This document shows positions 1,990-27,455 of a DNA stretch of 34,342 nucleotides, piece after piece. A model generated the notes under the pieces. That model was given only the letters and a program-made list of their open reading frames with translations, searched no databases and was not told the DNA's origin. The translations under genes were made by a program, and so were the position numbers. Each line of letters starts with the position of its first letter. Positions within the stretch are counted from its first letter, which is position 1. Where the stretch lies: assembly GCA_902772845.1 (NCBI GenBank), contig CACYCI010000123.1, positions 1 through 34,342 of the forward strand. The letters run 5' to 3'. This DNA is from an uncultured Ruminococcus sp. GTDB taxonomy: Bacteria; Bacillota; Clostridia; Oscillospirales; CAG-382.

Positions 1990-2786
1990 TAGGAGTATTC
2001 GATTCCGGCGTAGGCGGGCTCACCGCCGTCAGCGCGTTCGACCGCCTGATGCCCGAATGCGACATAGTTTATTTCGGCGACACGGCGCGCGTGCCGTACG
2101 GCACCAAAAGCAAGGCGGTAATAGAAAAATACGCGTTCCAGGACTGCCGCTTTTTGCTTTCGGAAGGCGTGAAAGCCATACTCGCCGCGTGCGGTACGGT
2201 TTCTTCGAACTGCCTTTCCGAACTGAAAAACGCGCTCGACGTACCTGTTGCGGGCGTAGTGGAGCCGGCCGCAAAAAAGGCGTACTACACGGCCGCCGGC
2301 GCCAACCGCACGGTCGCTGTGCTCGGAACTTCCGCCACCGTCCGCAGCGGCGCATACGAGCGCGAGATCCGCAAATACGGCGACGGCACGGAAATTATTT
2401 CAATTGCCTGCCCGCTGTTCGTTTCGCTGGTGGAAAACGGCAGAGTGGCAGACGACGATGAGATCGCCAACATAGCGGTGCGCGAATATCTTGAGCCCAT
2501 CATACCGCTTTCACCGTCGGCGGTCATACTCGGCTGCACGCATTATCCGCTCCTTTCGCGAATAATAGCAAAATATCTGCCAGAAAGCGAGCTTATAAAC
2601 GCTTCGGAAGAAGCGGTGAAATCGCTTGACGAAATGATCGGCGGCGACGCCGGGATCTGCGGCAGCGGCGCTTTGCGCAGGTTTTACGTCAGCGACGACC
2701 CGGCCGGATTTGCCGAAAGCGGCAAAGCGTTTTTGGGCCGCGATATTTCCGACCGCGTAAACTACGTAAACATTGAGGAATTCTGA
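1986..2786 (+). CDS. murI: Glutamate racemase
   Basis: Interconverts L- and D-glutamate for peptidoglycan, without cofactor, through two cysteines. The product is 266 residues, normal length. Seen: N-terminal DSGVGGLT (residues 6-13) with D6/S7, first catalytic cysteine C69 in AACGTVSSN, and second catalytic cysteine C184 in GCTHYPLL. The usual text around the first cysteine is ACNTAS; here the Asn after the cysteine is Gly, which is discussed as a finding. The start ATG overlaps the ddl stop (ATGA), indicating translational coupling between two wall-precursor enzymes. Confidence 0.96.
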   Translation: MIGVFDSGVGGLTAVSAFDRLMPECDIVYFGDTARVPYGTKSKAVIEKYAFQDCRFLLSEGVKAILAACGTVSSNCLSELKNALDVPVAGVVEPAAKKAYYTAAGANRTVAVLGTSATVRSGAYEREIRKYGDGTEIISIACPLFVSLVENGRVADDDEIANIAVREYLEPIIPLSPSAVILGCTHYPLLSRIIAKYLPESELINASEEAVKSLDEMIGGDAGICGSGALRRFYVSDDPAGFAESGKAFLGRDISDRVNYVNIEEF

Positions 2787-2792
2787 AACAGC

Positions 2793-3242
2793 ATGAAAAT
2801 ACCCGTAAATATAACAATAAGGACCGATAAAACGGTAGACGACCCGCAAGACGGCAGCAACCGCAACGAAGTGCGCGAAACCACCGTGAACGGTTTTATG
2901 CACACAAAAAAGAGCGGTCTCACGCTTGAATACGCCGAACGCGACGAAGGCAGTCTTCCCGTCACCACGCTCATAGATATGCCTGTAAGCGGCATGGTCA
3001 TGATGACGCGCGGCGGCGATGCGGGCATGATTTTTGAACGCGGCAAGACCCACAGCTGCGTTTTCACCAACGGCGCGCTGCCGGTGGAGATACGCGTGCG
3101 TACCGAAGCGCTTACGAATACCATCTCCGCGCTGGGCGGCAGACTTGACGTGGATTACACCGTGGATATCATTGCCAGCCGCGCCGAGCAAAGCCACCTT
3201 TCGCTCAGCGTGCGCCCGGCTTCCGGCGCGACCGCGTCCTGA
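2793..3242 (+). CDS. DUF1934 (YwiB-type) beta-barrel protein
   Basis: A 149-residue product resembling the DUF1934 family, whose Bacillus member is YwiB. Members are small lipocalin-like beta barrels of unknown function. Seen: an N-terminal strand with I/V alternation, the segment KKSGLTLEYAERD, a central Met/Gly turn region (MVMMTRGG) and the C-terminal half LGGRLDVDYTVDI. There is no signal peptide, so it should be cytoplasmic. It starts six bases after murI and lies 45 bases before the DnaD gene. The 45-base gap contains no clear promoter or terminator. Family assignment is from pattern memory and rated moderate; no function is claimed. Confidence 0.75.
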   Translation: MKIPVNITIRTDKTVDDPQDGSNRNEVRETTVNGFMHTKKSGLTLEYAERDEGSLPVTTLIDMPVSGMVMMTRGGDAGMIFERGKTHSCVFTNGALPVEIRVRTEALTNTISALGGRLDVDYTVDIIASRAEQSHLSLSVRPASGATAS

Positions 3243-3287
3243 CCCTGACGCGGCGAAAAAAACAATACGGCAGAAAAGAAATCGCTT

Positions 3288-4190
3288 ATGAAAAATTACA
3301 GGACGACCACTTCCGCAAGCGGGGATTTCGTAGTCCCGCGCGAAGCGCTGAAATACATAGCCGGGGCCGACGCAGACGTGCTGAGAGTGCTGCTGTTCTG
3401 CGCGGCGAATCCCGAATTCGAACTGACAGCCGCCGCGCGCGAATGCGGTCTGGACAAGGACCGCTTTTGCTCGGCGCTCGCGTTCTGGAGCGAAAACGGC
3501 GTTATCTCTGTGGGCGAAAAGTCCGCGCCGCGTAAAAAGCCGGCGGATCTGCTTCAGAGTTACGACAGTATCACGCTTGCAGATGCGCTCGAAAAGGACG
3601 GCTCGTTTGCTTCGGTAAAGGACAGCGTTCAGGATCTTTTGGGCATCCATATGAACAAAAACGACATAAACCTTTTGTACAATATGTACCATTTCGCGGG
3701 GATGAACGCCGATTACATATGTACGGTGGCCGCCTACTGCGCGGCGCGCGGAAAGCGCAGCATGATGAGCATTACGCAGACGGCGCTCGGTTTTTACGAC
3801 GACGGCGCCGATACCTTTGAAAAGCTGGAGATCATGCTTGCGGAACGCCAGGGACTGGAAGCCGACCGCGCGCGTTTTATAACGCTTTGCGGGTTCGGTT
3901 CGCGCAAGCTGACCGGTAAGGAAAACGCGTTGCTGACAAAATGGTTTTCGGAATACGAAATGCCTTTCGACGTCGTTCGCGTGGCGTACGACAAAATGGT
4001 AGACACCATAGGCGAAGTGAAGCTGACGTACCTCGACCGCATACTTGTGGACTGGTACTCTAACGGCGTAAAGGACGAGCAGAGCGCAAAGAACGCGGCT
4101 GAGCAGCGCAAGAACAGCGCTTCCCTGCCCGAAGACAGCTTTGACGAACGCGAATTCATTAACGCCGCCTTAAAAAAAGGAGTGAAATAA
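3288..4190 (+). CDS. DnaD-domain primosome protein
   Basis: A 300-residue protein of the DnaD/DnaB family that helps load the replicative helicase in Bacillota. The N-terminal ~90 residues look like a winged-helix (helical runs with FELTAAARECGLDKDRFCSALAFW in two parts). A DnaD-type helical domain occupies about residues 195-275, with the characteristic WFSEYEMPFDVVRVAYDK and the YLDRILVDWYSNGV end. A short disordered charged tail follows. The start ATG has only a weak A/G-rich ribosome site. The next gene, the helicase loader, begins directly after the stop (TAA then ATG), so the two should be made together. Whether it corresponds to DnaD or DnaB of Bacillus cannot be decided here. Confidence 0.9.
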   Translation: MKNYRTTTSASGDFVVPREALKYIAGADADVLRVLLFCAANPEFELTAAARECGLDKDRFCSALAFWSENGVISVGEKSAPRKKPADLLQSYDSITLADALEKDGSFASVKDSVQDLLGIHMNKNDINLLYNMYHFAGMNADYICTVAAYCAARGKRSMMSITQTALGFYDDGADTFEKLEIMLAERQGLEADRARFITLCGFGSRKLTGKENALLTKWFSEYEMPFDVVRVAYDKMVDTIGEVKLTYLDRILVDWYSNGVKDEQSAKNAAEQRKNSASLPEDSFDEREFINAALKKGVK

Positions 4191-12570: not shown

Positions 12571-13173
12571 TCAGTAAAATCCAAACCATTCAAGCAGTTT
12601 TATCCTTATGCGCGGCGTGTTTTGCGCAATAGCGGGGCGTTCGCCGCCGGAGTCGTTTTCGCCGTCGCCTCCGGTAGTCCGGGAACTGCCGAGACAAAGA
12701 GGCGGAAACAGCACGCACCACCAGTTTTTCCCTTTGCCTTCGCCTATGATAACGCGCAAAGAGAGATATTTCCCCGCCGGATAAATACGGTCGCCGTATT
12801 CTCTTTGCGGATATTCTTCCTCGCCGAACACCACCCGCACCGGATACGAAGCTCCGCGTTCCGCCACGACTCGCTCCGCAACGGCTTGGATACGGGGCGC
12901 GGAACCGTTCACGATACGAATGGCAGAGCCGAGATCTTCGCCTTCGAACGCCGAACGCGCATCCGCAAGCAGCGCGTCGCGCACGGCGAGCTTGAGCGAC
13001 TGGTCGGATTCTGTGTCGGAATTGGCTATTACGTGCAGCCGTATGACGCTTTTGTAAAGCGAACGCTCTTTGATCGGAAGATACGCCGCCGAAGCGAGCG
13101 TGATCATAACCGCCGCCGTCAGCGTGAACGCGAACGCCACGGCGCGTTTTTGCCGTTTGTCTTTGTTTTTCAC
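12571..13173 (-). CDS. spoIIR: Stage II sporulation protein R
   Basis: A forespore-made signal protein, secreted toward the mother cell, that activates the SpoIIGA protease to process pro-sigma-E. The product is 200 residues. Seen: a basic N-terminus, a membrane or signal segment at about 11-31, the family core RLHVIANSD (45-53), KLAVRDALL, and the hallmark GEGKGKNWWCVLFPPLC (144-160). Family length is typical. The start is a GTG at 13173 with AGGTGAT upstream. It lies 71 bases after ispE and 19 bases before addB. In Bacillus its promoter is read by sigma-F; here only a sigma-A-like candidate is visible. Its presence implies an endospore-forming lineage, although not that this strain sporulates. 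Confidence 0.96.
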   Translation of the reverse strand: MKNKDKRQKRAVAFAFTLTAAVMITLASAAYLPIKERSLYKSVIRLHVIANSDTESDQSLKLAVRDALLADARSAFEGEDLGSAIRIVNGSAPRIQAVAERVVAERGASYPVRVVFGEEEYPQREYGDRIYPAGKYLSLRVIIGEGKGKNWWCVLFPPLCLGSSRTTGGDGENDSGGERPAIAQNTPRIRIKLLEWFGFY

Positions 13174-13214
13174 GTTTTATCACCTCGAACTGATTATCGG
13201 CAACGATAAACGCG

Positions 13215-13243
13215 ATTATACGCAAAAATGCCGTGCGTGAAAA
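13215..13243 (-). promoter_or_regulatory. Candidate internal promoter ahead of spoIIR
   Basis: Minus strand TTTTCA (13243-13238), 17-base spacer, perfect TATAAT (13220-13215); predicted start near 13208 gives a leader of about 35 bases. The -35 matches four of six bases. The overlapping GTATA resembles a sigma-F -35, but no good GG-containing sigma-F -10 follows at the right distance. Confidence 0.4.
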
Positions 13244-13254
13244 ATTACCGCACG
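13232..13254 (-). terminator. Weak hairpin at the ispE stop
   Basis: On the minus strand CGTGCG (13254-13249) pairs with CGCACG (13237-13232) around an 11-base loop that contains the ispE stop, followed by GCATTTTTGCG. A six-base stem with a five-T run is at best a partial terminator; it overlaps the candidate spoIIR promoter. Confidence 0.3.
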
Positions 13255-14078
13255 ACACTTTCCGCAAATGCGGCAAAATGTTCACCCTGCAACGCTTTTG
13301 CGGCGTCGATCGCTCCTGAACGATCGGCAAAAATACCGAAGCACCCGCTTCCGCTGCCCGTAAGCGAAACGCCTATGGCTCCGCAGGACATGAGCGCGGC
13401 GCGGCAAAGCACCGTGCCGGGGCAGAAAGAGCCGCAGATATCGGTAAAATCGTTGTGGAGCGAATATGCCGCTTTGTACGGATCGCCTTCACGCAAGGCG
13501 CGGATCATTTCCCCGCTGTTGGGGGCGAAAAAGTTATATTTATCGGATTCGGCAAACATCTGTGCTGTCGAAGCGCCTTCATCCGGCGCGCAGAGGCAAT
13601 AGTAAAACGACGCGCGGCATTCTATACGTTCGGTCCGCTCGCCCTTGCCTGTGCAGAGCGCGGTCCCCCCGCGCACGAGGAACGGAACGTCGGCGCCGAG
13701 CGCAGCCGCAAGGCGGCAAAGCTCTTCGGCGGAAAGTGGCGAACCGTAAAGCGAATCCAGCGCGCGCAAAACGGCAGCCGCGTCGGCGGAACCGCCGCCG
13801 AACCCGCCGCAAACAGGTATGCGCTTATTGATGACGATCTCTGCGCCGCCCTTTATGCCGGTGCTCGCAAAAAACGCACGCGCCGCCTTAAAAGCAAGGT
13901 TCCTTTCGCCCGAAAGCGCGCCGCATTCCACGCTTATGCCGGCGCTTTCGCGCACAAAAACGTCATCGCAAAGCGAGACGGTCTGCATCACGGTCTCGAC
14001 AGAATGGTAACCGTCGGGGAGCTTGCCTGTTATGCTTAGCGTAAGATTCAGTTTTGCATAAGCTTTTTCGTTTATCAT
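13245..14078 (-). CDS. ispE: 4-diphosphocytidyl-2-C-methyl-D-erythritol kinase
   Basis: GHMP kinase of the MEP pathway that phosphorylates CDP-methylerythritol on the route to isopentenyl diphosphate. The product is 277 residues from the ATG at 14078. Seen: N-terminal KLNLTL with the catalytic lysine K9, PDGYH (21-25), the GHMP phosphate loop PVCGGFGGGSADAA (88-101), the catalytic aspartate D130 in LGADVPF, and the C-terminal SLTGSGSGCFG loop. The start ATG overlaps the stop of the PHP gene by four bases, which fixes it; an open frame extends to 14456 but lies inside that gene and gives a non-family N-terminus. dxr and ispG of the same pathway are in this block. Confidence 0.96.
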   Translation of the reverse strand: MINEKAYAKLNLTLSITGKLPDGYHSVETVMQTVSLCDDVFVRESAGISVECGALSGERNLAFKAARAFFASTGIKGGAEIVINKRIPVCGGFGGGSADAAAVLRALDSLYGSPLSAEELCRLAAALGADVPFLVRGGTALCTGKGERTERIECRASFYYCLCAPDEGASTAQMFAESDKYNFFAPNSGEMIRALREGDPYKAAYSLHNDFTDICGSFCPGTVLCRAALMSCGAIGVSLTGSGSGCFGIFADRSGAIDAAKALQGEHFAAFAESVVR

Positions 14079-14905
14079 ATATCTCTGAATACCGGCTTTC
14101 TTTCGCGGAAAGTGACAACGCCGCCAAACCCGAGTTCCTTGAGCAGGCGGTAGGTATCGGCTATGTCCGCCGCGAGGTCGCACGCGTAATGCGCGTCCGA
14201 ACCGACAGTGACAAGTTCGCCGCCGAGCTCGCGGTAGAATTTGATAAGATCGGTGTGCGGGAAAGTGCAGCCGTCGCGCTGGCGCAGGCCGGAAGTGTTC
14301 ACTTCGAGCGCTATGCCTTTTTCTATTATACGCCTGAGCACCGGCTCGAACTGCTCGCGCCCCTTTGTATAGACTTCTATTATGTTTTCCCTGCCGTGGC
14401 GGTGAAAATAGCGGTACGGATATGTGATATGCGCCAGCGTATCGAAACCGCCCCATTCCACAAGTTCACTCATTTCGGAAAGATAAAGCTCCCACGAATG
14501 CGCGAGCGTAGAGTCGGAAACCGCGGGATATTCCATATCTGAAAAATCCGGGAATCCGCGCACGCAATGCACCGAGCCGATTATGAAATCATATTTGAAT
14601 TCGTCAAGTATGCTGCGCGTCTTTTGCATTTTGTGGCACGCCTGCGCGAGCTCCACTCCGTAGACCACTTCGGTCCTGCCTGAGTATTTTCCCTTTGCGG
14701 CGCAAATATCGCGCCGGATCCCTTCGTTGTCGAGCGGAGGAAATATATTGCCCATAGTCTGGTCGATCTCGAGATGGTCCGTGACCGCGATCGACCCCAG
14801 CCCGAGCTCGACGGCGCGGGCGCAAAGCGCGTCTATCGACGCACCGCGCGACTTGTCGACATCGCCGGAATAGAGTGAATGGCAATGAGTTTCGTGTATC
14901 TGCAT
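14075..14905 (-). CDS. Stand-alone PHP-family phosphoesterase (histidinol-phosphatase-like)
   Basis: A 276-residue PHP-fold protein closest in layout to HisK/HisJ histidinol phosphatases. The metal-ligand set appears complete: H7 and H9 (THCHS), D43/H44 (VTDHLE), E85 (GVELA), H113 (GSVHC), H159 (LAHITYPYRY), and D237/H239 (GSDAH). The start ATG at 14905 has AAGAGG seven bases upstream; the frame is open to 14971 but that would overlap polC. It lies 25 bases after polC and overlaps ispE by four bases. No other histidine gene is nearby, so the true substrate is uncertain; other phosphate esters or a nucleic-acid-related role remain possible. Confidence 0.85.
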   Translation of the reverse strand: MQIHETHCHSLYSGDVDKSRGASIDALCARAVELGLGSIAVTDHLEIDQTMGNIFPPLDNEGIRRDICAAKGKYSGRTEVVYGVELAQACHKMQKTRSILDEFKYDFIIGSVHCVRGFPDFSDMEYPAVSDSTLAHSWELYLSEMSELVEWGGFDTLAHITYPYRYFHRHGRENIIEVYTKGREQFEPVLRRIIEKGIALEVNTSGLRQRDGCTFPHTDLIKFYRELGGELVTVGSDAHYACDLAADIADTYRLLKELGFGGVVTFRERKPVFRDI

Positions 14906-24641: not shown

Positions 24642-25340
24642 TTATTCTATTACCGTGCCTATGTTTTCTCCGCATGCCGCGCGGTAGATGTTATGCGGAT
24701 CGGCAAGCGAAAACAGCAGCATTTTTATTCCGTTTTCTCTCGCCATTGCGGCGGAGGTCGCGTCTATGACCGCGAGCCCGTCTTTAAGTATGGTGTCGTA
24801 AGACACTTTGTCGAAACGCACCGCGTCGGGGTATTTATTGGGGTCTTTATCGTACACGCCGTCGACGGCTTTTGCCGAAAGCACGATATCCATTCCCAGC
24901 TCGGCTGCGCGGAGCACCACGCCCGTGTCGGTCGAAAAATACGGATACCCTACTCCGCAGGAGCAGAGCACAACGTACCCTTCGTCAAGCAGTTCGAGCG
25001 CGCGCTGCTGACTGTACGGCTCGCAGATCTGCTGCATAGGCACAGCCGAAAGGACTTTTGCTTTGACGCCCGCCTGTTCAAGATAATCCTGCATTGCGAT
25101 ACAGTTTATCAGGGTGGCGAGCATGCCCATATGATCCGCCTTGAAACGGGTGACGTTCAGGCCGCTCTGCCTGGCGCCGCGCCAGATATTGCCGCCGCCT
25201 ATGACGACCGCCACGCGCACGCCGGAACCGACGCAGCGTTTGATCTCTTCGGCGACCTTTTGCAAAAAGCCGCCCTTTAATATTTTTCCGTCGCCCGAAA
25301 GCGCCTCGCCCGAAAGCTTCAACAGCACTCTGTTATACAT
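24642..25340 (-). CDS. pyrH: UMP kinase
   Basis: Phosphorylates UMP to UDP; bacterial UMP kinases are hexameric amino-acid-kinase-fold enzymes. The product is 232 residues. Seen: N-terminal LLKLSGEALSG, VVIGGGNIWRG, the ADHMGMLAT helix, PYFSTDTG, KAVDGVYDKDP and a C-terminal domain ending IGTVIE. AAGGGA lies upstream of the ATG at 25340. In most Bacillota rpsB and tsf precede this gene; here a lipoprotein gene ends 34 bases upstream instead. The gap shows no clear promoter or terminator. Confidence 0.97.
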   Translation of the reverse strand: MYNRVLLKLSGEALSGDGKILKGGFLQKVAEEIKRCVGSGVRVAVVIGGGNIWRGARQSGLNVTRFKADHMGMLATLINCIAMQDYLEQAGVKAKVLSAVPMQQICEPYSQQRALELLDEGYVVLCSCGVGYPYFSTDTGVVLRAAELGMDIVLSAKAVDGVYDKDPNKYPDAVRFDKVSYDTILKDGLAVIDATSAAMARENGIKMLLFSLADPHNIYRAACGENIGTVIE

Positions 25341-25374: not shown

Positions 25375-26766
25375 TCATTCCCATTCGAACACGAACTGTT
25401 CGTGAAGCGCGTCCGTCATACCCGTGAGATACGCTGTCAGCGGAGAGACGCCGTAAAGCCCTATATCGCTGCCGACCGCGGACATGATATCGTTGGGATA
25501 ATAATGCGCGAGCGACTCGGCGGCGGACTCGCTGATATTCTCGCCGTAAAGGTCGACCGCGCCGAAAAGGTGAAGTATTTCATGCGCGTAAGTGCACTCG
25601 CCGCAATAGAATTCGTATTTTTTATCTTCCGACCGGTAAAACAGCGCACGTTCACAGCTGTATGCTTCCCAATCGAAATCGTTCGAATCGCATTCGAGCG
25701 CGTAAGACCTGCCCGGCTTGTTCAGATGGAGCAGTACGCAATAGTTTTCGTATGACTCCAATTCGAAATATTCCGCAACGTAATTCTGCAGACTGCCGAA
25801 TACGGTCGAGTTGAACAGCAGGTCTATACGCACGAAACCTTCGGGCGAATCCGGGAGCTTTTCCGAAGTGGAAAGCCGCGGCGACGTGACTTGATCCGTA
25901 ATGACGAACCGAACGTCGGAACCGTATGATGCCGCGGCGCTTTTTATGAACTCCGCGGCTGCCCCGACTTTATCGAGTTCCGCTTTTATATCTTTCTCGT
26001 CCCACGAAGATACGCCGTCGTCTATGAAAACGTTGATAAGCAGGCATTCCCCTTTGAGAGACGCAGCGCTGCCGATCCCCGCGGTCGTATATTGCGGCGT
26101 GTACTCCGCGTTGCGGAACGCAAAGAAACACGGCCTGTTCAGGCGCCAGCCGTCGGCTGTGAGCGTGAATCCCGCTTCGTGCTCGGCTCCGGAAATATCC
26201 GGCACCGCGACAGCCGCGCTTTGTTCGCCAAACTCTTTAACGTAAGCGCTGCCGATCACCAAAGTCGCCGCCGGTGCGGGCGTAAAATGAAAGCTGTATT
26301 TCGCCTGCTCGCCTGATAATAGCACAAATTTTGTACCATATTCGGGATATGCGGAATATTCTTCCGCCCCGGACGGCAGATAGACCGAGCAGAGATCGTC
26401 CCACAGCGTTTGAGAAAGGTAATAGCGGTTTTGCGGAGACACGGTGCGCGCGGCGAATTTATCGGCACCGACGCGTTCTCCTTCGAAAATCCCGCCCATC
26501 ACGAGCAATTCGGTGAAAGCCAGGTCTTTTTCGAGCAGCTCCTGCGCATCCTGCAAAAACAGTTCGCGTTCGTCCGGCTCCGGGTCGGACGGCTCTTCCG
26601 GAACGGAAGACGACTCTTCGCTTTCGGAGGCAGTGCCGGAAGACGGCTCGGAAAGTTCCGGCGAAGCCGCTTCATCAGCAGAAGGCGATATTTTTTTGCC
26701 GCAGGCGCCGAGCAGCAGGCACAGCGCGAGCAGCGCGGCTAACAATGCCGATCGATTTGATTTCAT
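25375..26766 (-). CDS. Lipoprotein with metzincin-like zinc protease site
   Basis: A 463-residue surface lipoprotein. Residues 1-22 are a lipoprotein signal ending in the lipobox LLGAC (C22). A Ser/Glu/Pro/Asp-rich linker spans about 28-66. The next ~160 residues form a soluble domain with the recurrent pattern of IseA/NTF2-like modules (weak guess). The C-terminal domain carries HEILHLFGAVD (395-405), matching the metzincin pattern HExxHxxGxxH/D with Asp as third ligand, and NDIMS (425-429), which could be the Met-turn. Six cysteines follow the lipid anchor. GGTGAT precedes the ATG. It lies 59 bases after the DUF2344 gene and 34 before pyrH. An extracellular zinc peptidase is inferred; substrate unknown. 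Confidence 0.78.
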   Translation of the reverse strand: MKSNRSALLAALLALCLLLGACGKKISPSADEAASPELSEPSSGTASESEESSSVPEEPSDPEPDERELFLQDAQELLEKDLAFTELLVMGGIFEGERVGADKFAARTVSPQNRYYLSQTLWDDLCSVYLPSGAEEYSAYPEYGTKFVLLSGEQAKYSFHFTPAPAATLVIGSAYVKEFGEQSAAVAVPDISGAEHEAGFTLTADGWRLNRPCFFAFRNAEYTPQYTTAGIGSAASLKGECLLINVFIDDGVSSWDEKDIKAELDKVGAAAEFIKSAAASYGSDVRFVITDQVTSPRLSTSEKLPDSPEGFVRIDLLFNSTVFGSLQNYVAEYFELESYENYCVLLHLNKPGRSYALECDSNDFDWEAYSCERALFYRSEDKKYEFYCGECTYAHEILHLFGAVDLYGENISESAAESLAHYYPNDIMSAVGSDIGLYGVSPLTAYLTGMTDALHEQFVFEWE

Positions 26767-26825: not shown

Positions 26826-27455
26826 TTATTCGAGCGTTTCACCGTCGGCGGTGAGCAGCGCGGTGCGTACTATGCGGCTATCTGTGATCTTTTCGCCCAG
26901 AAAATCGGTGAGATAGCGCAAATTAAGGTGTTCGCCGCTTCCGCAGGCGCAGCGCAGGAACAGCCGCACGCCGCTTTCGAACGGCTCAAAACGCATGGAA
27001 CGTATAAGCGGAGATATATCGGTGAGGACGTCGCCTTTTTTGCTCTTCTTCACCACGTTTATACTTCCCGAAAGCGCGGCTTTTATTTCATCCGCGCCAA
27101 GCGGCGTGAAAAGGTCCACGATGTAATCCGCAAGCGCGAGCTCGCTTGCCTTCCTGACCGGCGCGGCGGCACGGATCACCGGCAGACATTCCGGGAACGC
27201 GCTCCGCAGCTTTTCGGTGATGGTTTCGTACGGAAGATCATCTTCGGAAAAGAAATCGAATATTTCGCATTCGCTTTCCTGATACACCGAAAGCGAAACG
27301 GCGAACGCCAACTTTATGTGCGGGTTGAATCCTTCGGTATAGCACGGGCGTATGCCGCTGCGAAGTATGGCGCGGAACACCGTGCGCTGAAGATCGAGAT
27401 GCGAAATATAGGCGGCGACGCCCTGTTTTTTAAAGAAAACTCTTACCGGCAGCAA
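26826..27455 (-). CDS. DUF2344/TIGR03936 radical SAM-associated protein (TTG start)
   Basis: A 209-residue protein of the DUF2344 family, found next to or fused with TIGR03960-type radical SAM proteins. Its role is not established; it has been presumed to work with its radical SAM partner. Seen: N-terminal [20 protein letters not shown] in two parts, then AILRSGIRPCYTEGFNPHIKLAFA, the most conserved family stretch. The start is a TTG at 27455 with GGAGGTG nine bases upstream, both inside the end of the radical SAM gene (13-base overlap); no in-frame ATG matches the family N-terminus. A CTG follows directly and is less likely. Confidence 0.88.
   Translation of the reverse strand: MLPVRVFFKKQGVAAYISHLDLQRTVFRAILRSGIRPCYTEGFNPHIKLAFAVSLSVYQESECEIFDFFSEDDLPYETITEKLRSAFPECLPVIRAAAPVRKASELALADYIVDLFTPLGADEIKAALSGSINVVKKSKKGDVLTDISPLIRSMRFEPFESGVRLFLRCACGSGEHLNLRYLTDFLGEKITDSRIVRTALLTADGETLE

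Follow-up and report, generated by a model that had tools for sequence, protein, structure and literature searches.

What does a surface lipoprotein with a zinc-peptidase motif do in the middle of a bacterial housekeeping cluster? The question is raised by a 463-residue protein encoded in 34,342 nucleotides of DNA from an uncultured Ruminococcus sp. (contig CACYCI010000123.1; the whole stretch analysed is here termed the window). We address it by computation, from sequence, predicted folds, conservation, synteny and the genera in which the site has been lost. The ORF starts with ATG and is co-directional with its two neighbours, from which it is separated by gaps of 59 bases upstream and 34 bases downstream. 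The surrounding gene order is uvrB-uvrA-TIGR03960-TIGR03936-gene-pyrH-frr-uppS-cdsA-like-dxr, with polC further on (Table 1). An earlier note, made from the sequence alone, had described this setting as housekeeping, and the TIGR03960/TIGR03936 genes upstream and pyrH-frr-uppS downstream bear that out. The same is true of the lipobox and the long acidic Ser/Pro linker that it had reported. The signal peptide ends in LGAC22, as in bacterial lipoproteins; C22 is invariant in all 26 rows of alignment A3, and a lenient lipobox pattern matches within the first 110 residues in 35/35 pyrH-linked orthologs. Residues 24–66 contain 12 Ser, 10 Glu and 7 Pro among 43 positions, and pLDDT in the linker falls below 50 at 26–40, 42–46 and 48–54. 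The translation likewise carries the HEILHLFGAVD motif named in the note at residues 395–405, followed by Tyr407 and by M428, 23 residues past the Asp ligand; a shuffled copy is expected to contain 4e-5 occurrences of the motif. Elsewhere in the window, two minus-strand ORFs of 393 aa (2511–3692) and 246 aa (12590–13330) have no Pfam match at E 1e-5, and the second may be spurious because it overlaps 13245–14456.

Table 1. Parts of the gene and its immediate neighbours, in window positions.
Feature	Position	Strand	Basis
Whole gene: IseA-fold / metzincin lipoprotein, 463 aa	25375..26766	-	ORF, translation, orthologs
Signal peptide and lipobox LGAC, lipidated C22, residues 1-22 (predicted)	26701..26766	-	sequence, conservation
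Acidic Ser/Pro linker, residues 23-61	26584..26700	-	composition, low pLDDT
N-terminal IseA-fold domain (predicted), residues 62-218	26113..26583	-	Foldseek, VIA
C-terminal metzincin-like domain (predicted), residues 226-463 (fold match 238-453)	25378..26091	-	VIA
HEILHLFGAVDLY predicted zinc site H395/H399/D405, general base E396, Y407; residues 395-407	25546..25584	-	motif, conservation
M428, predicted Met-turn methionine	25483..25485	-	conservation, M6 profile alignment
pyrH, next gene downstream	24642..25340	-	TIGR02075; beside gene in 35/35 linked orthologs
TIGR03936 radical-SAM-associated protein, upstream neighbour	26826..27455	-	upstream in 25/35 linked loci, flanks as retrieved

An AlphaFold2 model of the full protein, built with 58 sequences (pLDDT 87.3, pTM 0.79), contains two domains. 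The C-terminal one is predicted to adopt a metzincin fold, in agreement with the comparison proposed in the earlier note: residues 238–453 match the O-glycopeptidase OgpA best (VIA Z 11.8 over 182 residues), followed by acutolysin-C (Z 11.4 over 158 residues at 2.9 Å), ADAMTS-5 (Z 11.4) and TACE (Z 11.3). Because these top scores are ties, the fold picks out no metzincin subfamily. At the sequence level, HEILHLFGAVD fits the extended metzincin motif HExxHxxG/NxxH/D.

Library searches with the window protein itself returned no Pfam model at E up to 10 and weak NCBIfam matches only, the best relevant one being SVAGG (E 0.12, residues 387–432, covering the motif). Against whole genomes, the protein found orthologs at 64% (G003), 62% (G001) and 38% identity in the genus and at 25–36% in the family. 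A single-protein pattern scan of genome contigs found no relative; an alignment-based profile scan of a named genome collection, whose query A1 comprised the 14 motif-keeping rows of 30, confirmed 227 relatives, and the best 80 were analysed. Ten of these 80 (L033–L038, L043, L044, L046 and L048) coincide with pyrH-linked loci described below, and L039 is the same gene as L015. As H, E, H and G were fixed in the search pattern, their conservation in the 80 is circular and was left unused. D405, Y407 and M428 were absent from the pattern, and their conservation thus supports an Asp-ligand metzincin site with a Met-turn: among the best 80 of the 227, position 405 is Asp in 79, Tyr407 is kept in all 80, and Met428, which fits a Met-turn by sequence, is kept in 79. 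Glu replaces the Asp third ligand in L050 (GAGELY), which also carries Leu at position 428, and in L207 (GAEELY), a locus from the order sample described below.

Alignment A2 joins 57 of the best 80 loci to the window protein. When members were scanned singly, Reprolysin_5 matched in 13/58 (best 5e-6), SVAGG in 34/58 (best 9.5e-5) and the M6 domain in 21/58 (best 7.6e-5). Unrelated models were matched by single members at similar E (FAM176 4e-5, SA0632 2.4e-4), so that only the recurrence of the metzincin matches counts. Together, the predicted fold and the coupled conservation of H/E/H/G/D and M support a metzincin-like C-domain and, with it, the earlier proposal of a metzincin-like surface lipoprotein; from these we infer zinc binding and peptidase activity. 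That proposal had also suggested a new family in Clostridia. The family indeed has no model of its own, Pfam and NCBIfam scans of the window protein and the members having returned none specific to the C-domain, but it is not confined to that class: the best 80 of the 227 relatives come from Clostridia, Bacteroidales, Planctomycetes, a Spirochaetaceae bacterium, a Cytophagales bacterium, Aliikangiella and a Kofleriaceae bacterium. It would thus add a metzincin family that spans several phyla and lacks its own model in the two libraries searched.

Asp as the third metzincin ligand is rare; the accessible part of PMC12237041 describes it in snapalysins, thuringilysins and igalysins and treats a Tyr shortly after the Asp as a possible switch. 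The site is therefore a rare variant, as the earlier note had headlined, yet not new in kind, since three metzincin families with this ligand have already been described. Igalysins (M64) and snapalysins (M7) share the Asp ligand and the Met-turn with the window protein (PMC12237041 and PMC3890501, each as far as accessible). The M64 IgAse, however, reads HExxHxxxG (PMC12237041, same portion), with one residue more before the Gly than the HExxHxxG of the window protein, which lacks this extra residue; in snapalysin, the accessible text of PMC3890501 places the Met about ten residues past the ligand, in contrast to 23 here. The string HEILHLFGA does not occur in the literature searched.

The M6/immune inhibitor A family (thuringilysin) shares HExxHxxGxxDxY, the Asp third ligand and a later Met with the window protein, which differs by its lipid anchor and the IseA-fold domain in front. 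We retrieved 15 M6 loci and used 12 M6 domains, 7 of which carry the exact HE..H..G..D spacing. In five M6-family domains of the class (L160, L162, L165, L166 and L167), the spacing between HExxH and the PDLY segment is different. With hhalign, the C-domain matched the 7 motif-bearing rows at E 2e-6 (probability 78.5%), a match favoured by the choice of this set by motif, with HExxHxxGxxDxY and the Met in register; the N-domain profile gave E 0.53 against the same rows. All 12 domains yielded E 1.6e-5 (probability 56%). The match was gone without residues 392–409 (E 0.77 and 0.83). When the motif was kept and the other columns were shuffled, 5/6 draws lost the 7-row match, one giving 8.5e-5, and 6/6 lost the 12-row match. 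The M6 tie therefore rests on the motif, because the match vanishes without 392–409 and one control with shuffled context still matched. Since the match depends on the motif but also gains something from the order of the remaining columns, we use the label M6-like and do not assign membership. TIGR03296 has no match in the window protein at E up to 10 and none in its genome; the window protein falls short of the 110.8-bit cut-off of this model, which the relatives' weak E-values cannot reach either. The metzincin call is unaffected by this weaker tie because it is based on fold and conservation.

The N-terminal domain, modelled alone from 10 sequences (pLDDT 87.0), most resembles IseA. Foldseek placed IseA on top at E 1.6e-5 (8wt4) and 3.1e-5, with the next hit at 0.08, in a loose superposition (TM 0.52–0.55, rmsd 7.5–7.8). 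In VIA, residues 62–218 gave Z 10.9, 10.7 and 10.2 to three IseA entries and 6.9 to the next fold, and the best of these superpositions covered 145 of 159 residues, almost the entire IseA domain, at rmsd 4.0; identity was 8–9%. A search of PDB sequences with the N-domain profile (hmmsearch) reached no IseA chain at E up to 10. The models thus support an IseA fold that is linked by fold, not by sequence. Of the earlier guess that the domain is IseA- or NTF2-like, the IseA half holds by fold; the NTF2-like alternative was rejected (Z 6.9 vs 10.9). Within the family of the window's genome, to which the search was confined, the N-domain profile matches 33/63 genomes.

IseA (YoeB) is an extracytoplasmic DL-endopeptidase inhibitor of Bacillus subtilis; the window protein shares its fold and is unlike it in being lipid-anchored and fused to a metzincin. 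The accessible text of PMC7299342 describes it as a secreted LytE inhibitor under WalRK control, and the available portion of a review (PMC13204101) states that it occupies the LytE active site, mimicking substrate. No fusion of an IseA fold to a metzincin was found in the accessible parts of the open-access literature searched. This fusion and its fate are what is new here, and they would make the IseA fold a module of a larger protein.

That fate becomes apparent at the pyrH locus. Loci were counted by matches over the domains, many raw family matches having covered signal peptide and linker only. The set, which leaves out a few weaker matches, holds 33 full-length and two single-domain pyrH-linked loci, 13 unlinked loci in the family and two from other families of the order. 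Flanks were mostly 1.5–6 kb, some contigs end nearby, and "unlinked" denotes the absence of pyrH within that stretch. All 33 full-length genes in the window's family adjoin pyrH, as do two genes with the C-domain only, and in linked loci the matched stretches of gene and pyrH lie at most about 350 bases apart. An intact site (H, E, H, G, D and M together) is present in 13/35 linked orthologs, all from genera g1, g2, g8 and g13; the two C-domain-only genes are among them. The expectation that homologs conserve H395, E396 and H399 fails in the remaining 22/35, from genera g5, g6, g10 and g12, which have none of the three and are here called dead. None of the 35 has lost G402 or E372. Met428 is retained in 13/13 intact and 10/22 dead linked orthologs, and Tyr407 in 12 of the 13 intact ones, with Asn in L020. 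The unlinked loci keep H/E/H/G/D and M without exception (15/15; 13 in the family, two outside). Because 22 of the 35 linked orthologs have lost catalysis, the essential function that they share cannot be proteolysis. The loss is all-or-none and follows genus; it therefore identifies pseudo-protease orthologs and leaves the case for the site in the window's lineage standing.

What is most unusual about the system is that active and dead orthologs occupy one conserved locus. Non-catalytic metzincins that keep the fold after loss of HExxH are known from animals (ADAM11/22/23; PMC11266112, in its accessible part), where they are paralogs; here, bacterial orthologs at one chromosomal locus are involved. 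Trees were built without the active-site columns. A C-domain tree of the 35 linked rows and 10 of the 15 unlinked ones implies two changes; in it, no single branch separates off the unlinked rows, and the row for L157 is very long. The two-domain tree implies three changes, and a single loss is not rejected (p_AU 0.134). In six overlapping dead pairs, C-domain dN/dS by simple counting is 0.09–0.13, compared with 0.18 and 0.21 in two intact pairs; five of the six dead pairs come from one genus, rows are shared, and dS exceeds 1 in the pairs L001/L004 and L018/L012. N-domain dN/dS is higher than that of the C-domain in five of these dead pairs (0.16–0.24) and lower in L013/L014 (0.06 vs 0.13). 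The low values suggest that the dead C-domain is kept for something other than cutting, and it looks like a selected pseudo-protease. A sample of the order yielded matches in 13 genomes outside the family; of 12 loci read, 10 carry the motif, the exceptions being L207, with Glu for Asp, and L198, where the site is lost. None of the 14 loci L195–L208 has pyrH beside the gene. L198 (G300:C46), from another family of the order, combines a lipobox-like start and a dead C-domain with a different N-terminal part and is an extra site loss outside the pyrH-linked set.

The reading that we favour, at a probability of roughly 0.55, is that of a lipid-anchored fusion of an IseA fold and a metzincin that acts as an endopeptidase in the window's lineage and by binding only in sister genera. 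The protein would sit on the outer face of the cytoplasmic membrane, its flexible linker carrying both domains. In the window's lineage, H395, H399 and D405 would bind zinc, and E396 would activate water; Y407 would help to stabilise the intermediate, and M428 would form the Met-turn floor. The C-domain would then be an endopeptidase acting close to the membrane. More tentatively, the IseA-fold domain might serve as the binding module that recruits an envelope protein to the C-domain; a wall hydrolase, or a regulator of one, is the most plausible candidate. The gene's counterparts in sister genera would have dropped catalysis and would work by binding alone.

The strong purifying selection on dead C-domains also fits a different picture: every lineage would use the protein as a scaffold or receptor, and the motif that survives intact in the window's genome would be a leftover with little catalysis. 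The absence of all of H, E and H from the site in 22/35 linked orthologs and the precedent of the animal ADAMs (PMC11266112, accessible part) point the same way. A leftover, however, would not be expected to keep H/E/H/G/D and M intact together in 13/13 intact linked and 15/15 unlinked loci, nor D and M in 79 of the best 80 of the 227 relatives, and we regard this alternative as doubtful at best.

The retention of the N-domain bears on another alternative, namely that the IseA fold is a built-in inhibitory or pro-domain covering the metzincin cleft up to its removal, which would make the protein a zymogen held at the membrane and unconnected with wall hydrolases. Latency imposed by N-terminal parts is common among metzincins, and the order of the domains, inhibitor before protease, is the appropriate one. 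IseA itself blocks an enzyme active site (PMC13204101, available portion). Yet two pyrH-linked orthologs lack the N-domain and keep the site, and 74 of the best 80 of the 227 relatives align to the query only from residue 185 on, three of which (L043, L046 and L048) nevertheless carry the N-domain. Moreover, 22/22 dead linked orthologs keep the N-domain, which would be pointless if it served only to restrain catalysis; retention in dead and intact orthologs does not differ significantly, however (Fisher p 0.13). On balance we consider the zymogen reading unlikely.

Under the favoured reading of a fusion that cuts in one lineage and binds in others, the IseA fold would bind a partner in the envelope. 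The window's genome, about 88% complete, holds one NlpC/P60 match, and neither this protein nor the best match in four other carriers has a signal peptide by eye (0/5). The protein (L174, G000:C18) and its relatives L175–L178 have a MIICVP-type start without a signal peptide, presumably as befits a cytosolic recycling enzyme. A simple IseA-type inhibitor reading thus lacks a secreted NlpC/P60 target here. NlpC/P60 is present in 21/21 gene carriers and 12/16 non-carriers among 37 family genomes, a comparison confounded by kinship; for this reason, and because the proteins look cytosolic, the co-occurrence was not used as evidence.

The closest functional precedent is the Listeria pair Mtz/Tim, in which, according to the accessible part of PMC8235301, a secreted metzincin (HEXXHXXGXXH/D) acts with a lipoprotein of inhibitor-like fold, the lipoprotein is cleaved and wall sensitivity changes. 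Metzincin, inhibitor-like fold and lipoprotein recur in the window protein; unlike it, Mtz/Tim consists of two proteins, is TIMP-like rather than IseA-like and is phage-derived. A bolder version of our reading, which is possible but which we hold only tentatively, is that of a wall-control module that unites an IseA-type recognition domain and a metzincin in one membrane-anchored chain and that, beside pyrH, may, between one and three times in a single Clostridia family, have turned from a protease into a pseudo-protease that only binds. If true, orthologs of a single bacterial gene, some active and some dead, perform related tasks, the former by cutting and the latter by binding. The locus offers a natural ortholog set, with and without the zinc site, in which to ask what a non-cutting metzincin fold does.

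Members away from pyrH carry the C-domain in other contexts. Five unlinked paralogs with an intact motif (L147, L148, L149, L151 and L153, from G046, G043, G045 and G041) contain GDVNGDGKVN-type repeats near the N-terminus, which we take to be dockerin-like and which suggest that other scaffolds may also bear the metzincin domain. Such repeats would also suit an outward-facing gut peptidase that acts on host or diet glycoproteins in the manner of OgpA, the best single fold match (Z 11.8), and gut and rumen genomes are common among the best 80 of the 227 relatives. This last alternative seems improbable to us, however: snake-venom and ADAMTS domains, at Z 11.4, tie with OgpA, the gene lies in a housekeeping cluster, its product is membrane-held and non-catalytic in sister genera, and the domain also occurs in Planctomycete and Aliikangiella genomes. 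Three further paralogs with an intact motif, L152, L155 and L156, start with CxxC...CxxC zinc-ribbon-like segments.
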